A DNA stretch of 10,955 nt from Neptuniibacter sp. (GTDB lineage: Bacteria; Pseudomonadota; Gammaproteobacteria; Pseudomonadales; Balneatricaceae), in contig JASBRM010000192.1 of assembly GCA_030149405.1 (NCBI GenBank), positions 1 through 10,955 of the forward strand, written 5' to 3'. The first letter of the stretch is position 1; every line of letters begins with the position of its first letter. Both the position numbers and the translations under genes were made by a program. This document shows positions 62 through 8,308 of the stretch, one piece after another. The notes below the pieces were generated by a model. That model was not told the DNA's origin. It was given only the letters and a program-made list of their open reading frames with translations, and searched no databases.

Positions 62-2431
62 ATGAAAATCAATGAGCCGGTTACAGATCGTGAGGTCAAG
101 CTCAGAGATGGTCAGGAACTTGTTACAAAAACAGATCTAAAAGGCACCATCACCTATGTGAACCCTGCATTTGTTGAAGTAAGTGGATTTAGTCGTGAAG
201 AGTTGGTAGGTCAGAACCACAATGTCGTTCGTCACCCGGATATGCCTCCTGCGGCTTTTAAAGACCTTTGGGAAACATTGAAGCTTGGTCGCCCTTGGTC
301 AAAATTGGTCAAAAATCGCTGTAAAAATGGTGACTACTACTGGGTTAAAGCGAATGTCACTCCAATCTTCTCCGGCGGACAGATCGTAGAATACATGTCT
401 GTTCGGACCCGACCTACAGAACAAGAAGTACGTGAATCAACAGAGCTTTATGCAAAACTCCGCCATGGTGATGCTTCTTTACCATCACCCAACGCAGTGC
501 AAAAGAAAAACCTATCTGCTCAATTAACTAAATTTGCAATCATTGCTGCAGTTCTCGCTGTGGTTGTAGATGCTGGTCTGTTTTTAACAGGTGCTCCGGA
601 CGCAACTCTTCTAATAGGTCCGTTATTGGCGTTCTTGATCATGGCATTTGGAGCGTTTAATTGTCTGAATAACCAAGTGATCAAACAAGTTGATCAGGTT
701 AAGAGACAGATGCGTTCCATTAGTGAGGGCGATTACCAATCGGAGATCAAACTTGATCAGCCCGGGGAGATGGGCAGTTTAAATCGCGCAGTTAAAATGT
801 TAGCGGTGAAACTGGGTTATGAAGTTAATGAAGCTAACACTCAGGCAGCTGCTTCGCAACGGATTAAGGTTGCATTGGATAGCGTAACTTCTAATGTGAT
901 GATGGCCGATAATAACGGCGAAATTATCTACTGTAACGACTCAGTGCTCGAAATGATGCGCATTGCTCAGGATGATATTCGTGAGCAACTGCCTGACTTT
1001 GATGCCGAAAGTATTGTTGGGTCCAATTTTGATATCTTCCATAAAAATCCTGCACATCAGCGCAATATGCTGGAGAAACTGAAAGACACATACAAAGGTC
1101 AAATCAAAGTAGGTGTTCGTAGTTTCAATTTAACTGCAAACCCGGTTGTTGATGATTCTGGTACTCGTCTGGGAACAGTAGTCGAATGGGTTGATATCAC
1201 TGATCAACTGACGGCTCAGGAGCAGATCCAAGAACTGATTGAGAACGCAACGCATGGTGAATTGGATCAGCGTCTGGATGTAGAACTCTATACTGGATTT
1301 ATGCGCGATGTTGCAACGGGTGTAAACCAGATGTTGGATGCTGTCGTTGATCCTCTGCGTGAAGTCAAACGTGTCTTGGGTGCTCTGGCAGAGGGTGACT
1401 TAACTCAGAGTATGTCGGGTGATTTCCATGGTGAATTTGCTCAACTGAATAATTCCCTGAACAGTTCAATGCAAACACTGAACTCAATGGTTGGGGAGAT
1501 CAGCTCAGCAGGACACAGTATCACAACAGGTGCGACTGAAATTTCCAGTGGTAACAATACCCTGAGCTCACGTACTGAGTCTCAGGCGGCGAGCCTACAG
1601 GAAACTGCTGCAAGTATGGAGCAGATGACCAGTACCGTTAAGCAAAATGCAGAAAATGCTTCACAGGCGAGTAAACAAGCAAGCGATGCTCAGGAACTCG
1701 CGTCTCGCGGCGGAGAGATTTCCAACAAAGTAGTTACTTCCATGGCGGCGATTCGCCAGAGCTCGACCAAGATTGCAGAGATCATCGGTGTGATCGATGA
1801 AATTGCCTTCCAGACAAACCTGTTGGCGCTGAACGCAGCAGTTGAGGCGGCTCGAGCTGGTGAGCAGGGCCGTGGTTTCGCTGTAGTCGCTGCAGAAGTC
1901 CGTAATCTTGCTCAACGTAGTGCCAGCGCTGCTAAAGAGATCAAAGAACTGATCAACGACAGTGTTGAGAAAGTGGAAGAAGGTGGTTTATTTGTTGATG
2001 AGTCAGGCAAAGCCCTTATCGAGATCATGGAAGCGATTAACAGCGTTTCTAGTATCATCGGTGAGTTTGCTTCAGCCAGCCGTGAACAGGCGATTGGTAT
2101 TGAGCAGGTGAACATTGCTATTGGTCAGATGGATGAGGGTACTCAGCAAAATGCGGCTCTCGTAGAGGAAGTGGCGGCAGCGTCGGCTTCGATGGAAGAC
2201 CAGGCCCGTCAGCTGCAACAGTTAACGAACAAGTTCACTGTTGATGGTTATCAGTCAGTCAGTGCAGAACCGTCTACCGGGATTAGCAGTTTGAGAACTA
2301 TGGCAGCATCTATTGAGCCATCTACCCCTGCTGCACCAGCAGCGCCGGTTACTCATAGACCGAAGCCAAGCCTGCCACCACAACCTATCGTGTCTTTGAA
2401 TGAAAGTGATGACGAATGGGAAGAATTTTAA
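62..2431 (+). CDS. Methyl-accepting chemoreceptor, Aer-type PAS plus Aer2-like PAS/HAMP core, CheR-tethering tail
   Basis: A 789-residue inner-membrane energy or oxygen receptor. Residues 15-120 form an Aer-type PAS with N34, R57, H58, D60 and W79 at the same numbers as the FAD-pocket residues of E. coli Aer. Two membrane helices (about 156-175 and 182-201) are joined by a very short turn, so there is no periplasmic sensor. A HAMP follows (203-255), then a second PAS (265-385), two further HAMP-like segments (about 386-475) and the signalling hairpin (480-725). The hairpin aligns without gaps to Tsr as I recall it, with the tip near 575-620, so it should be the 36-heptad class. A flexible proline-rich linker (735-780) leads to the C-terminal pentapeptide EWEEF, the xWxxF site for CheR. 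The start is set by GGAGGA at 50-55. Its downstream neighbours are the adaptation genes cheR, cheD and cheB. FAD and heme binding are inferred. Confidence 0.95.
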
Positions 2432-2489: not shown

Positions 2490-3332
2490 ATGATAGATAA
2501 TCCTGCTAGAGATCGCGAGTTTACATTTACTAAAGCGCACTTTGATAAAGTGCGCGGTGAATTGTATGACTACGCGGGTATTGTCCTGGCAGATTCGAAA
2601 ATGGACATGGCCTATAACCGTTTAGTTAGGCGCATCCGTGACTTAAGAATCAGTAGCTTTGATGAATACTTCCAGCACCTTGAGCGTGAGCCGCTTGAGT
2701 TCACACAGTTTGTAAATGCATTAACGACCAATCTCACAGCTTTCTACCGTGAGCGTCATCATTTCGATTTTGTTGAAAAGGAAATAATCCGAGACCTAAA
2801 AGCACGTAATATACATAAATTACGTGCTTGGTCTGCTGGCTGCTCGCTTGGCGAAGAGCCCTATAGTCTGGCGATGACTATCCGTGATGCAGGTGTTGAC
2901 CTAGCAAGTTGGGATGTAAAAATTCTGGCAACGGATATCGATTCAAAAGTACTCGCCAGTGCCCAATCCGGTGTTTATGCCATGGATCGAGTCAAAGCTC
3001 TGGAAACAGGACTGATTCATCGTTGGTTTTTAAAAGGTAAGGGGCGAAATGAAGGGATGGTCAAGGTAAGACCAGAACTTCAGGAAATGATTAAATTTGG
3101 CCACCTTAATCTCATGAGTGACTGGCCAATCGATGGCCCTTTGGATTTTATCTTTTGCCGTAACGTAATGATCTATTTTGATCAGCCTACCCAGTTGAAA
3201 CTGCTGAATAAAATGGCTGACCTTCTGAAACCAGACGGTTATCTGTTTGTCGGTCATTCAGAGGCATTAGCCAGACATGCCAGCCGTTTTGAACTGGTAG
3301 GGAAAACCATCTATCGCAAGGTCGGTGGATGA
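2490..3332 (+). CDS. cheR: CheR, chemoreceptor glutamate methyltransferase
   Basis: CheR transfers methyl groups from S-adenosylmethionine to glutamates on the receptor signalling helices and so tunes adaptation. The 280 residues show the helical CheR N-domain (about 1-80) and the SAM-binding domain: GCSLGEEPYS, then the acidic ATDID strand end, FCRNVMIYFD and the late GYLFVGHSEAL segment. The beta-subdomain (about 160-195) has the short KGKGRNEGMVKV loop. It matches the pentapeptide-dependent enterobacterial CheR without a gap, which fits the EWEEF tail of the receptor just upstream. AAGAGG at 2477-2482 lies 7 bases before the ATG. The gene's TGA overlaps the cheD start (ATGA), which suggests translational coupling. 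Length is normal for the family. Confidence 0.97.
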   Translation: MIDNPARDREFTFTKAHFDKVRGELYDYAGIVLADSKMDMAYNRLVRRIRDLRISSFDEYFQHLEREPLEFTQFVNALTTNLTAFYRERHHFDFVEKEIIRDLKARNIHKLRAWSAGCSLGEEPYSLAMTIRDAGVDLASWDVKILATDIDSKVLASAQSGVYAMDRVKALETGLIHRWFLKGKGRNEGMVKVRPELQEMIKFGHLNLMSDWPIDGPLDFIFCRNVMIYFDQPTQLKLLNKMADLLKPDGYLFVGHSEALARHASRFELVGKTIYRKVGG

Positions 3333-3949
3333 ACATGAGCGAAGCTTTACCTCCAGTTGCTTTAAGAGGCTTTGAGCAGTTTCGGGCTTTTTGGGAACCG
3401 CGTTGGAATAAGTATGCAGTTAAGGTTGCACCGGGGCAGTTCTATGTATCGAACAGTGATATGGTGATCACCACGGTACTCGGTTCATGTATCTCAGCTT
3501 GTATACACGATCCTGTGACAAAGTTTGGTGGCCTGAACCACTTTATGTTACCAAGCAGTGGTGGTAGTGAGGACATGAATCGTTCCATGCGATATGGTTT
3601 TTTTGCAATGGAGCAATTGATCAACGAACTGATGAAATTTGGCTGCAATCGTGATCGCCTGGAGATTAAATTAACCGGGGGTGGCGATATGATGGGTTCT
3701 GGTTTTAATCAGATCGGCCAGCAGAATATTGATTTTATCTTGCAGTACCTGAAGGATGAGGGGCTTAAGCTCCTTTCTTCAGACTTGGGTGGTGATAGAG
3801 CCCGTAAGGTTGCTTATTTCCCTCTGGAGGGAAGAATGCTAGTTAACAAACTTGATCATCGTGAAGATCAACGTCTTATCGAGGAAGAGCGTAGCTTCCG
3901 GGTGGATGTGGATTCCCATCTGGATGACTCTGACGTAGAGCTGTTCTAA
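3329..3949 (+). CDS. cheD: CheD, chemoreceptor glutamine deamidase
   Basis: CheD converts particular glutamines of chemoreceptors to glutamates, exposing them to methylation. The 206 residues include the catalytic set: Cys54 in LGSCISACIHDP, His71 in GGLNHFMLP and Thr48 six residues before the Cys, the same spacing as in Thermotoga CheD. The KLTGGGDMM region (about 114-122) is also typical. The first 35 residues precede the core and look like the extension seen in other proteobacterial CheD proteins. The start ATG overlaps the cheR stop; an ATG two codons later (3335) is an alternative. No CheC, the usual CheD partner in Bacillus and Thermotoga, is encoded in the window. The acidic C-terminus ends in DVELF, nearly the same as the end of the receptor-like protein at 5044-6240. 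Confidence 0.96.
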   Translation: MNMSEALPPVALRGFEQFRAFWEPRWNKYAVKVAPGQFYVSNSDMVITTVLGSCISACIHDPVTKFGGLNHFMLPSSGGSEDMNRSMRYGFFAMEQLINELMKFGCNRDRLEIKLTGGGDMMGSGFNQIGQQNIDFILQYLKDEGLKLLSSDLGGDRARKVAYFPLEGRMLVNKLDHREDQRLIEEERSFRVDVDSHLDDSDVELF

Positions 3950-3966
3950 AAGGATATAACCGAGAA

Positions 3967-5025
3967 ATGGAAAAACATAAGGTATTGATTGTTGATGATT
4001 CCGCAGTAGTCAGGAAAGTCCTGTTCGAACTTCTGTCTTCCGATCCGGAAATTGAAGTAGTGGATACCGCTGTGGACCCTTACGATGCGAGGGATAAAAT
4101 TAAGGAGCATCGACCTGATGTTCTAACACTGGATATCGAAATGCCTAAAATGGATGGCATTACTTTTCTGCGCAACCTCATGAAGCTGAATCCGATGCCA
4201 GTTGTAATGCTGTCTACCCTGACGCATAAAGGTGCTGACGCTACCTTGCAGGCTCTGGAGCTGGGTGCAGTGGATTTTATGCCGAAACCTACAATGTCAC
4301 AATCGGACTCGGCTCTGAACATGTTTCAGGATGAGTTAAGACAGAAAGTGAAAATGGCTTCGGCTTCGGCCAAAAAGATTAAGTTCATGCGCCCTGCTGG
4401 AGAACATGTAGCTAAACCGACTCTAACGGCTCCAGTTGCTGTTAACGGCAGTGGGGTAGAAGTCATTGCAATAGGCGCTTCTACAGGGGGTACTGAGGCA
4501 CTCAGAGATGTGCTTGAAGTATTGCCAGCAAATCTTCCACCCATTGTTGTGACCCAACATATTCCTGCCAGTTTCAGTGAACGGTTTGCAAATAGATTGA
4601 ATACTCAGTGTGCTTTGACCGTGAAACAAGCTGAAGAGGGTGATATTTTGAAACCGGGACATGTGTATATCGCGCCGGGCTCTCATCACCTAAGGGTTAA
4701 AAAACAAGCCAATATACTTAGCGCTGTTCTGGATGACAGAGAACCCGTGAATCGACATAAACCTTCCGTTGAGGTTATGTTCGACTCATTGACAGATGCA
4801 GGCATTGTGAAAGCTGTTAGCATTATGCTTACAGGTATGGGCGATGATGGTGCGGTTGCAATGAAGCGTTTGAATGATCATGGCTATCACACAATTGCCC
4901 AGGATGAGCAAACCAGTCTGGTTTGGGGGATGCCCGGAATGGCTGTTAAGCATGGTGGCGTACAAGAAGTCCTGGCTTTAAATAAAATATCTGAAAGATT
5001 GGTCCAACTACTGTCGGGCAAATAA
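3967..5025 (+). CDS. cheB: CheB, receptor methylesterase/deamidase response regulator
   Basis: CheB removes methyl groups from receptor glutamates when phosphorylated by CheA, closing the adaptation loop opened by CheR. The 352 residues hold a receiver domain (1-125) with D10/D11, phospho-acceptor D56, S83 and K107, a linker of about 30 residues, and the esterase domain (about 160-350). The catalytic triad is S172 in GASTGG, H198 in TQHIP and D294 in MGDDGA. The 26- and 122-residue spacings from the serine are those of E. coli CheB (S164, H190, D286). The gene starts 17 bases after cheD with a weak ribosome-binding site (AGGA at 3951-3954 is rather distant), so coupling to upstream translation is likely. 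There is no C-terminal xWxxF-type tail and no sign of damage. Confidence 0.97.
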   Translation: MEKHKVLIVDDSAVVRKVLFELLSSDPEIEVVDTAVDPYDARDKIKEHRPDVLTLDIEMPKMDGITFLRNLMKLNPMPVVMLSTLTHKGADATLQALELGAVDFMPKPTMSQSDSALNMFQDELRQKVKMASASAKKIKFMRPAGEHVAKPTLTAPVAVNGSGVEVIAIGASTGGTEALRDVLEVLPANLPPIVVTQHIPASFSERFANRLNTQCALTVKQAEEGDILKPGHVYIAPGSHHLRVKKQANILSAVLDDREPVNRHKPSVEVMFDSLTDAGIVKAVSIMLTGMGDDGAVAMKRLNDHGYHTIAQDEQTSLVWGMPGMAVKHGGVQEVLALNKISERLVQLLSGK

Positions 5026-5043: not shown

Positions 5044-6240
5044 ATGGTCCAGAAAAATGGAATCTTAGCCGTTGCTATAGTCGCAACAGTGGTACTTACG
5101 GTTGCACAGTTTGTTGAAATAAACCAGCTCGTGTCATTTGTCTGTTTAGCTTTACTGTTTGTGTCTTTAGGTAGCTTATTTATTGTCAAAGAATCAGCGG
5201 CTCCCAAAAAGGTTATCGAATCAACCCAATCAGGTACACAGGTTCCAGAATTAAAAGCGGCGCTTAATCAGGTTTCAGAAACACTGGTGCATGATGCAGT
5301 CGTTGTAAATCAGGAAATATCTCGGGTGGACGGCTTGATAAAGGAAGCTGTGGCACTAATGAGCACCAGTTTTCATGATATGCATGACCTGGCAAACCGA
5401 CAAATTCAACTGACCTCTGACATTATCTCTCAGACTCATGACGGCGATGACCCTGTTGATTCTGATTCTCCATCATTCAATGTTCAAAGCTTTATCCGCG
5501 AGACCGGTAATACTCTGGATCAGTTTATCTCCATCATGGTGGACGTGAGTAAGAACAGTTTGGAAACGGTTCATCATATCGATGATATGGTGGAGAAGCT
5601 GGACGGCATCTTTGGGCTGATTGAGAATGTTGAAGGTTTGGCGAGCCAGACTAACTTGCTTGCATTAAATGCCAGTATTGAGGCTGCTCGTGCTGGTGAG
5701 GCCGGTCGAGGTTTCGCAGTAGTAGCAGATGAAGTTAGAACTCTGTCGATTAACTCAGCAGCATTGAATAATCAGATTCGTGAAGAGATTGGTCTGGCAA
5801 AAGAAACCATCGAAATACTGCGTAAAACCGTTGGCAGCATGGCTTCTACAGATATGAGTGACACTATCGGTACTAAAGAGAAAATGGGTACCATGCTGGA
5901 GCACATGTCTTCAATGAATAACTTCCTGAATGAGAAAGTTGTAGAGATCTCTCATGTGGGTGATCAGCTGAATGGGGTTGTGGACACAGCGGTAAGATCT
6001 CTGCAATTCGAAGATATCTCATCTCAGGCTTTGGGTTCTATGGAGCACAACGTTAACTCACTGAACGAGATTTCCAGCCTGCTCTCCGGCGTTGTTGATA
6101 GCCAAAACCAGATTGATGTTCAAGCTGCTGACAAGTGTACCGAGAGGTGTAAGACCTTGAAGGCTGAAGCTCAGACCCGAAATGAAACTCGAACAGTATC
6201 GCAAAACGACATGGATGAAGGTGAAGTCGAGCTGTTTTGA
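5044..6240 (+). CDS. Small membrane receptor-like protein with MCP hairpin tip and CheZ-like motif
   Basis: A 398-residue protein with two N-terminal membrane helices (about 7-24 and 28-47) and no sensor or HAMP domain. A cytoplasmic helical region follows, with an acidic linker at about 130-146. Residues 190-235 carry a clear chemoreceptor hairpin tip ([19 protein letters not shown], then [12 protein letters not shown]), the surface that binds CheA and CheW. The arms are unequal: about 60 residues before the tip and over 100 after it. The distal arm contains [11 protein letters not shown], where D324 and Q328 match the D-x3-Q phosphatase signature of CheZ (D143/Q147). The acidic C-terminus ends in GEVELF, echoing CheD. 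AGGG at 5031-5034 lies 9 bases before the ATG. Automatic annotation would call this a methyl-accepting protein. I infer an array component that may also act on a response regulator; neither role is proven. Confidence 0.85.
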
Positions 6241-6280: not shown

Positions 6281-6589
6281 ATGACAGTTTCCACAGTAGT
6301 TGCTGATGATGGTAAAACCGTAAATGTTGTTGTTACCAGTCAGTTTGATTATTCACTTCATCAGTCTTTTCGTGACGCCTATCGCAATGTTGATAAAGCA
6401 GGAGTCACCTTCCGGGTAGACCTTTCTAAGTCTACTTACATGGACAGTTCAGCATTGGGTATGATTCTTCTGTTGAAAGAGCATGCAGATAAACTGGGCG
6501 GCCGTGTGATTATTTCCAGACCTAATGAGTCCGTATTGAAAATTCTCACAATCGCAAATTTTGATAAGTTCGTGACCATTGAGAAGTAA
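6281..6589 (+). CDS. STAS-domain anti-sigma-factor antagonist (CrsA/HsbA-like)
   Basis: A 102-residue single STAS domain of the RsbV/SpoIIAA fold. The phosphorylation loop is YMDSSALG. By alignment to SpoIIAA (S58) and RsbV (S56), the phosphorylatable residue should be S56, the first serine after D55. Members switch partners: the unphosphorylated form binds the anti-sigma kinase or another target, while kinase phosphorylation releases it and a PP2C phosphatase restores it. The next gene, 3 bases downstream, encodes both phosphatase and kinase domains, which strongly supports this role. The pair resembles CrsA-CrsR of Shewanella and HsbA-HsbR of Pseudomonas. A 40-base gap separates it from the previous gene, with AAGAG at 6269-6273 as the likely ribosome-binding site. 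Confidence 0.93.
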   Translation: MTVSTVVADDGKTVNVVVTSQFDYSLHQSFRDAYRNVDKAGVTFRVDLSKSTYMDSSALGMILLLKEHADKLGGRVIISRPNESVLKILTIANFDKFVTIEK

Positions 6590-6592
6590 ATC

Positions 6593-8308
6593 ATGACTGT
6601 TTTGCATGATTCGGGTTATTCCGAAAAACTTGTCTTGATCGTCGATGATATGCGCCTGAATCGTGAAATTTTAGGGCAAATGGTTCAGGAACTGGGGATT
6701 AAGGTTGCGTTTGCAAATGATGGTCTGGAAGCTGTAGAGCAGTATAAAAACCTCAAACCTGATCTGGTCCTCATGGATATTAATATGCCAGGTCAAGACG
6801 GTGTCGAAGCCACCCGGCAAATTAAAGAATTGGCCGGTGATGGTTTTATTCCGGTCATTTTCGTTTCTGGTGCTGAAGGACAGGATGTCATACGCAAAGC
6901 GATCGATGCCGGTGGCGATGATTACATTCAGCGCCCCTTTCCGTTTGAGTTACTTGAAGGCAAGATTGTCGCTCTGTTGCGTATCTCAAACTTATACGGC
7001 CAGGTTGCTCATCTGAACCGCTTGAGAGCTCGTGAAGAGGAAGTGGCTGAGCAGCTGTTCAGTGGTGCTGTTTTATCCGGCAATGTTGCACAAGATCAAA
7101 TACGTATTCATAAGCAGGCCGCAGAAACATTCAGCGGTGACGTTCAGTTAAGTGCGTTTCGCCCTAATGGCGATCTGAACGTATTGCTCGGAGACTTTAC
7201 GGGTCATGGTTTAACCTCAACGGTTGGTGCTTTGCCTCTTTCCGAAACGTTCAGGGCGATGACTGCAAAAGGTTATGACGCCGAAGAGATCATTGTTCAA
7301 ATTAACCGCAAATTGCACTCTTTATTGCCAACTGGCATGTTCCTGGCGACTGGTATAGTCACACTGGGTTTGGATGGTAGTGCCAAAATCTGGAACGGCG
7401 GTTTGCCGGATATCATGATTGTATCCGAAGGCCAGGTGCGTTCTCGTGTTATCTCAAATCATCCACCGTTAGGTATTCTTCGAAACCTGTCGGCCCTAAA
7501 TTTTGAACACCATAAGCTTGATCCGGAAGATCATATCCTATTGCTTAGTGATGGTGTGCTTGAAGCTGAAAGTGCAACCGGCGATATGTTCGGCGAACAG
7601 CGTTTGCTGAATACGATTGGTGAGCAGGTTTATGAAAAGGATACTAATCTGGTGGATCTGATTCTTTCAGGTCTGAGTATCTTTGTCGGCGATCACCCTC
7701 AGAAAGATGATATCTCTCTAATAGATATTCCGGGCGAGATTTTTGTTGAACAGCAAGAGAAGGCGCCAGCGACCGCGGGTCAGGAACCTGTTGTGCTGGA
7801 ACCTACCGAGCTGGATATCTGGAACTGGAGTATCGAGTTACAGGGTAAAAGTCTTGGACGTATTAACCCGGTGGCGCAGGCTTTAAGTCGTTTGCAGGAA
7901 TCCGAGGGCAATGGTGATCATTGGCACAATGTGTTCAGTGTGCTCACTGAGTTGTTTGTGAATGCTTTAGATCACGGTGTACTTAAACTGGAGTCCAGCC
8001 TTAAGTCGACACCTGAAGGTTTTGCCGAGTATTTTAGCGAACGTGAAAAACGCTTGGAAAATCTGACTTCAGGTGCCGTTTCATTGTATATGCAACATAC
8101 GCGTATGCAGAATGGAGGCCGCCTAAAGGTTCAGATTGAAGACAGTGGTGAAGGCTTTGACTACGAAAGCTGGTGTAATTCGAACAAATCCCAGGAAACG
8201 AATATGTTTTCCGGGCGTGGAATTGCTCTGGTAAAAGAGCTTTGCGAAAGTGTTCGTTATGACAACGGTGGCTCAAAAGTAGAAATCGTCTATTCTTATG
8301 CATCCTGA
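6593..8308 (+). CDS. Three-domain response regulator: receiver, PP2C phosphatase, RsbW-like kinase (CrsR/HsbR-like)
   Basis: A 571-residue cytoplasmic switch. The receiver (about 12-135) has D18/D19, phospho-acceptor D62 and S92, but the invariant lysine is replaced by R114 (IQRPF). A short coiled linker leads to a SpoIIE/RsbU-type PP2C phosphatase (about 155-382) with metal-binding aspartates in FSGD (183), GDFTGHG (201), LLSDG (320) and QKDD (372/373). The C-terminal GHKL ATPase of RsbW type (about 405-571) keeps its N-box ELFVNALDHG (E453, N457), G1 box IEDSGEGFD (D517) and G2 box SGRGIAL, so both opposing activities look intact. In Shewanella CrsR the kinase-like domain binds sigma-S and CrsA relieves it; in Pseudomonas HsbR acts on HsbA. 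The likely substrate is the STAS protein 3 bases upstream. The input could be CheA or an Hpt protein. The 3' end overlaps tlyA by 13 bases. Confidence 0.93.
   Translation: MTVLHDSGYSEKLVLIVDDMRLNREILGQMVQELGIKVAFANDGLEAVEQYKNLKPDLVLMDINMPGQDGVEATRQIKELAGDGFIPVIFVSGAEGQDVIRKAIDAGGDDYIQRPFPFELLEGKIVALLRISNLYGQVAHLNRLRAREEEVAEQLFSGAVLSGNVAQDQIRIHKQAAETFSGDVQLSAFRPNGDLNVLLGDFTGHGLTSTVGALPLSETFRAMTAKGYDAEEIIVQINRKLHSLLPTGMFLATGIVTLGLDGSAKIWNGGLPDIMIVSEGQVRSRVISNHPPLGILRNLSALNFEHHKLDPEDHILLLSDGVLEAESATGDMFGEQRLLNTIGEQVYEKDTNLVDLILSGLSIFVGDHPQKDDISLIDIPGEIFVEQQEKAPATAGQEPVVLEPTELDIWNWSIELQGKSLGRINPVAQALSRLQESEGNGDHWHNVFSVLTELFVNALDHGVLKLESSLKSTPEGFAEYFSEREKRLENLTSGAVSLYMQHTRMQNGGRLKVQIEDSGEGFDYESWCNSNKSQETNMFSGRGIALVKELCESVRYDNGGSKVEIVYSYAS

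Follow-up and report, generated by a model that had tools for sequence, protein, structure and literature searches.

The window, the whole stretch of DNA analysed here (10,955 nucleotides; Neptuniibacter sp., contig JASBRM010000192.1), carried in this order an Aer2-like receptor, CheR, CheD, CheB, a McpA-like open reading frame (ORF), a STAS protein and a receiver-SpoIIE-HATPase protein. In the available text of PMC7184735, the gene order of the stage-1 F7 cluster matches that of the window, and the slot of the ORF is that of the mcpA-like receptor. Both here and in related loci this gene lay after cheB and before the genes for the STAS protein and the serine phosphatase. Within this stage-1 F7 chemosensory cluster, the ORF at 5044-6240 is the McpA-like receptor. 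The features were as follows.

62..2431, + strand: Aer2-like receptor (PAS-HAMP-MCP), ending EWEEF (CheR-type pentapeptide by pattern)
2490..3332, + strand: CheR (family profile)
3329..3949, + strand: CheD, ending DSDVELF, a tail of the same kind as in the McpA-like protein (family profile; tail pattern)
3967..5025, + strand: CheB (family profile)
5044..6240, + strand: McpA-like receptor ORF, 398 aa (homologues; place in the stage-1 F7 gene order)
5047..5184, + strand: hydrophobic hairpin at the N-terminus (residues 2-47), probably a membrane anchor (sequence; predicted helices)
5563..5970, + strand: MCP signalling hairpin with tip, residues 174-309 (PF00015, E 4.8e-26; invariant tip block)
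5869..6087, + strand: C-terminal arm spanning residues 276-348, matched to the catalytic helix of CheZ (hhalign; arm-only comparisons)
5995..6033, + strand: CheZ-like motif with D324 and Q328 (translation, conservation, helical wheel)
6196..6237, + strand: C-terminal tail, residues 385-398, possible docking peptide (conservation; putative function)
6281..6589, + strand: STAS protein of the anti-sigma-factor-antagonist type (family profile)
6593..8308, + strand: receiver-SpoIIE/PP2C-HATPase protein, alternative target (family profile)

The McpA-like protein starts with a hydrophobic hairpin and an MCP domain; these are followed by the long C-terminal arm, which a linker joins to an acidic tail. 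PF00015 (MCPsignal) was the sole Pfam family to exceed its cut-off (92.1 bits against 34.6). The N-terminal hairpin would probably be inserted in the membrane as an anchor. Helices were predicted at residues 2-23, 28-47, 67-132, 147-216, 222-348 and 359-388, with a low-confidence end, in a model of modest quality (13 sequences, mean pLDDT 73.3, pTM 0.41); mean pLDDT was 83 at residues 321-330 and below 50 at 391-398. When the model was used in fold searches, the listed matches were chemoreceptors and unrelated long helices, a listing that does not tell long helices apart; CheZ was absent among those listed, which speaks neither for nor against kinship.

The C-terminus, EVELF, had no aromatic residue at pentapeptide position 2, as in McpA-like F7 receptors; the EWEEF of the Aer2-like receptor is, unlike it, a CheR-type pentapeptide. 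By their description in the accessible part of PMC7184735, P. aeruginosa PA0180/CttP, V. cholerae VCA1088 and S. oneidensis SO_2117 share the cluster position, the receptor tip and the conserved C-terminus with Val at position 2. That text calls the C-terminus strikingly conserved, with Val replacing the aromatic residue of CheR-binding pentapeptides, and its role unclear. The role of McpA-like receptors in F7 is likewise described there as unclear, and the portion available makes no mention of a CheZ-type site in the named receptors.

According to the same source, as far as available, the F7 cluster of a stage 1-2 system includes cheY, but organisms of this kind carry cheZ solely in F6 systems. 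The preliminary description had reported no CheZ, CheC or CheX gene in the window. This held for the seven ORFs scanned, but the genome itself has a true CheZ on another contig (C294; 174 bits), beside genes reading as cheY and cheA. Ending of the F6 signal therefore need not depend on the McpA-like protein. For CheC and CheX, no Pfam match was found in this genome (about 96% complete), nor in the ORF at E ≤ 1. Contig C20 of the same genome has STAS, cheY and the beginning of a cheA at its end, in keeping with the missing front of the F7 cluster.

Conservation and orientation of the D-x3-Q motif

The 13-residue CheZ-like motif occupied residues 318-330 of the ORF (window 5995-6033, + strand, by translation, as the preliminary description had placed it), with the D324 codon at 6013-6015 and the Q328 codon at 6025-6027. 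Its statement that the two residues keep the CheZ spacing in a predicted helix agreed with the continuous helix predicted at 222-348, and the E. coli CheZ string that it quoted matched the 30 CheZ genes examined, most of which have AQDFQDLTGQ. A bare D-x3-Q occurred three times in the protein, no more than expected by chance, and this pattern alone was rejected as evidence.

By contrast with the bare pattern, the conservation of QF-x-D-x3-Q exceeds chance. Q321, F322, D324 and Q328 were identical in 42 of 42 sequences (the window and 41 relatives, down to 31% identity) and E323 in 41, and the arm was otherwise variable; the refuting case named in the preliminary description, loss of D324/Q328 in orthologues, did not arise. 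The relatives came from 12 loci of named genomes and from a class search with matches at E ≤ 1e-30 in 57 of 274 genomes; 30 loci were kept from that search, one being the window's own gene and the others 31-46% identical. Other positions conserved in at least 97% were in or near the tip region 203-238, or were M1, F110, S172, I245, A267 and D270. Among 17 other receptor-like matches in the same genome, QF-x-D-x3-Q was absent from the frames read, and a looser pattern matched three of these proteins elsewhere in their length.

Facing was computed from alignment-averaged hydrophobicity with a period of 3.5. Measured from the hydrophobic face, the Asp stood at 107-123 degrees and the Gln at 159-174 degrees in the four groups; the CheZ values were 143 and 195 degrees. 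Both residues point off that face, as in CheZ, and not toward the bundle core. The window protein thus has a conserved, outward-facing D-x3-Q on a predicted helix, as CheZ has. In CheZ the motif AXXFQ directly precedes D-x3-Q (PMC7750401, available portion). The window protein reads SLQFE at this place and McpA-like L162-L164 read ALQFQ; in a sister family of receptors, described below, A, S or another residue stands before LQFQ or FQFQ.

The tail was also conserved, with G393 and F398 in 42 of 42 and L397 in 40; position 395 was V or I in 41. Compared with the CheZ tail peptide, a conserved tail is present, but its sequence differs (GEVELF against DDLLSSLGF) and is common to CheD and a GGDEF protein, which counts against a CheZ-like role. 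At the DNA level, the pattern [DE]-[VI]-[DE]-L-F-stop was found at three places in this genome: window 3932-3949 (CheD), window 6223-6240 (McpA-like) and C59:1708-1725 of genome G000 (L063, GGDEF/diguanylate cyclase). The backward control gave two, so the counts alone prove nothing. The tail that these three proteins have in common may dock all of them on one partner.

Comparison of the arm with CheZ

CheZ (PF04344; E. coli structure 1KMI) is built as an antiparallel hairpin and likewise carries D-x3-Q, in the late part of the second helix. It has a similar hydrophobic pattern, followed by a linker and a C-terminal peptide (domain layout and D-x3-Q phosphatase motif in the accessible text of PMC7750401); it differs in having no receptor tip or membrane anchor. 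Direct comparison gave low scores. PF04344 had no match in the window protein at E ≤ 1. The full McpA-like alignment against 30 CheZ sequences reached 5.9% in hhalign (single-pair E 0.0063), with Asp on Asp (D324 on D172 of CheZ L064). The arm alone reached 50%, above 60 of 60 heptad shuffles. In a scan of 60-column windows against CheZ, the McpA-like motif windows came first (26.2, 35%), and the best Aer2-like window scored 21.1.

Arm-CheZ scores, with the highest block-shuffle score and the reversed control in parentheses, were 29.0 for McpA-like arms (24.6; 23.7), 28.1 for five further McpA-like arms (27.5; 17.6), 25.1 for short tipless relatives (24.8; 13.6), 40.5 for sister arms (33.6; 12.9) and 31.9 for an F7 pool (27.0; 27.4). 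In every group the real score was above all 60 heptad-block shuffles and all 60 full shuffles, and the offset was the same throughout, with the Asp column 49 on CheZ 172. The thin shuffle margins of the tipless (25.1 v. 24.8) and five further McpA-like arms (28.1 v. 27.5) count against kinship with CheZ, as does the reversed alignment of the F7 pool, 27.4 against 31.9 forward. Run against the sequences of the PDB, arm profile A2 found E. coli CheZ (1kmi_Z) at E 6.9 only; in the matched range, profile D49 would fall on chain residue 143 if the alignment is ungapped.

The sister family linked the two more firmly. The Pfam CheZ profile had matches in 106 of 248 genomes. Fourteen matches below the cut-off were listed and 11 of these regions fetched; seven, all receptor-like ORFs (L094-L099 and L101), had the motif, and four did not. 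The motif-free matches (L100, L102-L104; E 1.5e-4 to 7.6e-4) count against kinship. The sister family (L094-L099 and later finds) is receptor-like, reads LQFQDRxSQIL or nearly so, and has a tail mostly ending FF. One member, encoded on Pseudomonas sp. HR96 plasmid NZ_CP139142.1 and annotated as a methyl-accepting chemotaxis protein, has the same arm and motif position; its gene lies 10 bp before a response regulator, followed by STAS and CheA. The family differs from the McpA-like receptors in its clearer CheZ similarity and its cluster type. By topology it is possibly the VC1394 kind of receptor of the F9 system (PMC7534058, as far as available).

The full-length McpA-like and sister profiles matched at E 2.7e-46. 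This score was largely carried by the common MCP tip, so the comparison was repeated with arms only. The McpA-like arms (71 rows, here and in the arm-CheZ scores above, in which three genes count twice: L113=L045, L114=L032 and L118=L052) matched 16 sister arms at 95.5% (E 1.3e-8, 79 columns, Asp on Asp). Five further McpA-like arms reached 97.4% and ten tipless arms 97.2%, and none of 60 heptad shuffles attained any of these scores. All 31 rows spanning McpA-like and sister-type arms, which were 12-16% identical to the window's arm, had the Q, F, D and Q of the motif as well as the F at the end. On the other side, the sister family matched the 30 CheZ sequences at 94.5% (single-pair E 7.4e-8, 64 columns, D329 on CheZ D172). 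PF04344 matched 11 of 16 sister arms at E ≤ 1 (best E 5.6e-6); the next most frequent family among the best 25 of 47 matched six (best E 0.0028).

Profile A3, built from the 16 sister arms, gave 104 matches in 69 of 229 genomes, 40 of which overlapped CheZ genes over the PF04344 cut-off (98 CheZ places compared). Other matches were 35 ORFs of 380-470 aa (14 at known McpA-like places), 28 of 150-300 aa and one above 500 aa (L205, 683 aa, with the motif). In the window's own genome A3 matched nothing at E ≤ 1e-3, neither the McpA-like ORF nor CheZ, so both the window's arm and this CheZ are below its reach; this counts against the reading as a CheZ-type phosphatase. The mixed profile A2, which includes McpA-like rows, had one match recognised as CheZ (E 9.7e-5) in 348 genomes. 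The profile check against CheZ asked for in the preliminary description thus came out weak when direct and well supported through the sister family, and at the sequence level supports a relationship between the McpA-like arm and CheZ.

The motif could also be a structural or assembly feature of the receptor class, its likeness to CheZ stemming from coiled-coil similarity. The spurious long-helix scores (the reversed control of 27.4 and the PF04344 matches to motif-free receptors) and the receptors and unrelated long helices listed by the fold search speak for this. However, ordinary receptors are abundant, yet only one of 104 sister-profile matches exceeded 500 aa, and that one has the motif. 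The outward Asp and Gln, and the retention of motif and tail in tipless proteins that have no receptor hairpin, also argue against this explanation, which we consider very improbable.

Short relatives and gene order beside cheY

Profiles A2 and A3 also retrieved short ORFs with the motif, too small for a receptor tip, and 44 such proteins were fetched in two rounds (16 and 28). All 40 regions of the second round, these 28 among them, had QF-x-D-x3-Q, having been picked by a profile that contains the motif. Nearly all short proteins ended LF or FF (exceptions: L179, L198, L206 and L207). Eight of them searched against Pfam and NCBIfam gave nothing over cut-off, and a plasmid search with a short protein gave no match.

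In one tipless class (L142-L151; 148-194 aa, LQF or MQF, then mostly DM), cheY lay 43-140 bp downstream of all ten genes, followed in several by cheA, cheW or cheR. For L154, L160 and L179, cheY was 200, 39 and 55 bp away. In total, cheY lay within 200 bp in 13 of 44 short motif proteins; the remaining 31 were without it, which counts against a phosphatase reading. A class of 24 with QF[YF]D-x3-Q had no cheY within 1.5 kb downstream, and some of its members were in che clusters.

Some proteins were recorded in their own right. L156-L158, L181-L199, L201 and L202 (137-228 aa, QF[YF]D-x3-Q, mostly IELF-type tails) were solitary or in che clusters, with no adjacent cheY; three of them compared with family profiles gave nothing over cut-off. 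L152 and L153 were about 580 aa, with a changed motif (LQIGDITRQ and LQAGDSTRQ) and LF ends, and lay near cheW or cheB. L206 (G221:C14) is a 263-aa frame with LQFSDRVSQQL whose end, QEDVDKLLDSL, is close to the CheZ tail; it is possibly an intermediate between CheZ and the motif proteins.

Sister genes had cheY at most 65 bp downstream in 26 of 28 read: L095-L099, L161, L165, L167, L168, L169 twice, L170-L173, the HR96 plasmid gene (where the neighbour is annotated as response regulator), L208-L212 and L214-L218. In L213 it was 305 bp away, and L094 had none. This is a count of genes fetched, some of them close kin, and no census; L101 and L175, a further receptor type with no cheY beside either, were left out, and with both the count is 26 of 30. 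Some McpA-like genes also had a downstream cheY, at 20 bp in L058 and, among the five further ones, at 139-172 bp in L162-L164 and 870 bp in L174; in L166 it followed the STAS and receiver-PP2C genes. L162-L164 and L166 are taken to be from Pseudomonadaceae.

In each of four named relatives, the best match of the CheY beside L142 stood just before the F7 cheA. Identity was 58-62%, with E between 1e-37 and 1e-42, and the second-best match over all four had E 3.5e-20. In the window's genome its best match, again the cheY of the F7 cluster, was on contig C20 (62%, E 1.5e-44; next 7e-18).

In the stage-1 order, mcpA adjoins STAS and receiver-PP2C, not cheY, which counts against CheY as the target. 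The CheZ-like site could instead have the neighbouring CrsR-type protein, receiver-PP2C-HATPase, as its partner and act on the receiver there, resetting a partner-switching branch rather than CheY. McpA-like, STAS and receiver-PP2C genes adjoin in the window and in most of 12 annotated loci, and L029 retains the trio with no recognised CheA, CheB, CheR or CheD beside it. Against such a target, a stand-alone cheY adjoins the sister genes, one tipless class and McpA-like L058 and L162-L164, and L028 and L031 keep STAS with no receiver-PP2C seen next to it. We judge this alternative distinctly unlikely.

Proposed role of the McpA-like protein

The motif, its conservation, the outward-facing D324 and Q328, the alignment register and the gene order, all observed here, are best explained if the ORF is a McpA-like F7 receptor whose arm carries a CheZ-type active site. 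It would then be a phosphatase of CheY-P, probably of the F7 CheY; we hold this reading to be likely, and from these features we infer catalysis, target, tail role and array membership in this organism. In CheZ, the active-site Asp engages CheY and the Gln positions the attacking water. By this precedent D324 and Q328 would take these same two roles towards a CheY-type response regulator, so that the D-x3-Q helix would complete the receiver's active site for hydrolysis. The acidic tail ending LF may help capture the phosphorylated receiver, as the end of CheZ does.

A single chain would thus unite two functions, a receptor hairpin able to sit in the CheA/CheW array and a phosphatase for ending the signal. 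The tip could place the activity within the array, McpA being found in the F6 array in other species: in S. oneidensis it co-clusters with CheA3, the F6 kinase (PMC9855816, portion available). By the same source, McpA loss there leaves swimming unchanged and McpA overproduction increases swimming, like that of other receptors, which counts against the phosphatase reading. The signal ended would most likely be the one carried by the F7 CheY, which has no CheZ in its cluster and is favoured as substrate because of the gene order in relatives. The suggestion that a membrane-anchored array member and a phosphatase are joined in one chain is partly supported: conservation, facing and the sister-linked CheZ profile speak for it, and the direct similarity is weak.

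The arm might also be a non-catalytic receiver-binding surface, with Asp and Gln serving to bind, that sequesters CheY (or CheB) or recruits it to the array. Conservation and gene order indicate a receiver partnership and not catalysis, and a Glu precedes the Asp where CheZ has Gln. By contrast, both residues of the CheZ catalytic pair are invariant, not one alone, and Gln does precede the Asp in L162-L164. Pure binding is in our view unlikely, with some chance of being right.

A wider proposal extends the phosphatase reading. McpA-like receptors would be the missing F7 CheY-P phosphatases, placed by their tip in the F6 flagellar array, where they would drain the signal of the F7 CheY and so couple both systems. 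CheZ, both receptor families and the tipless proteins would form one superfamily, in which either CheZ may stem from a receptor arm or the arm from CheZ. Many chemosensory systems that have no CheZ would then carry an unrecognised phosphatase beside cheY. We offer it tentatively, as possible but on balance doubtful.

CheC and CheX phosphatases, with the same proposed function, belong to different families. In the accessible part of the open-licence PMC literature, we found no description of a CheZ-type site within a receptor. The window protein is not filed as CheZ because it has no Pfam match and no exact AXXFQ, and it may still work like one. A CheZ-type site with a docking tail would offer one hypothesis for the missing F7 cheZ, the role of McpA-like receptors and their conserved C-terminus. 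It predicts that short unannotated proteins beside cheY would be phosphatases, and suggests a common ancestry of a receptor and a phosphatase.
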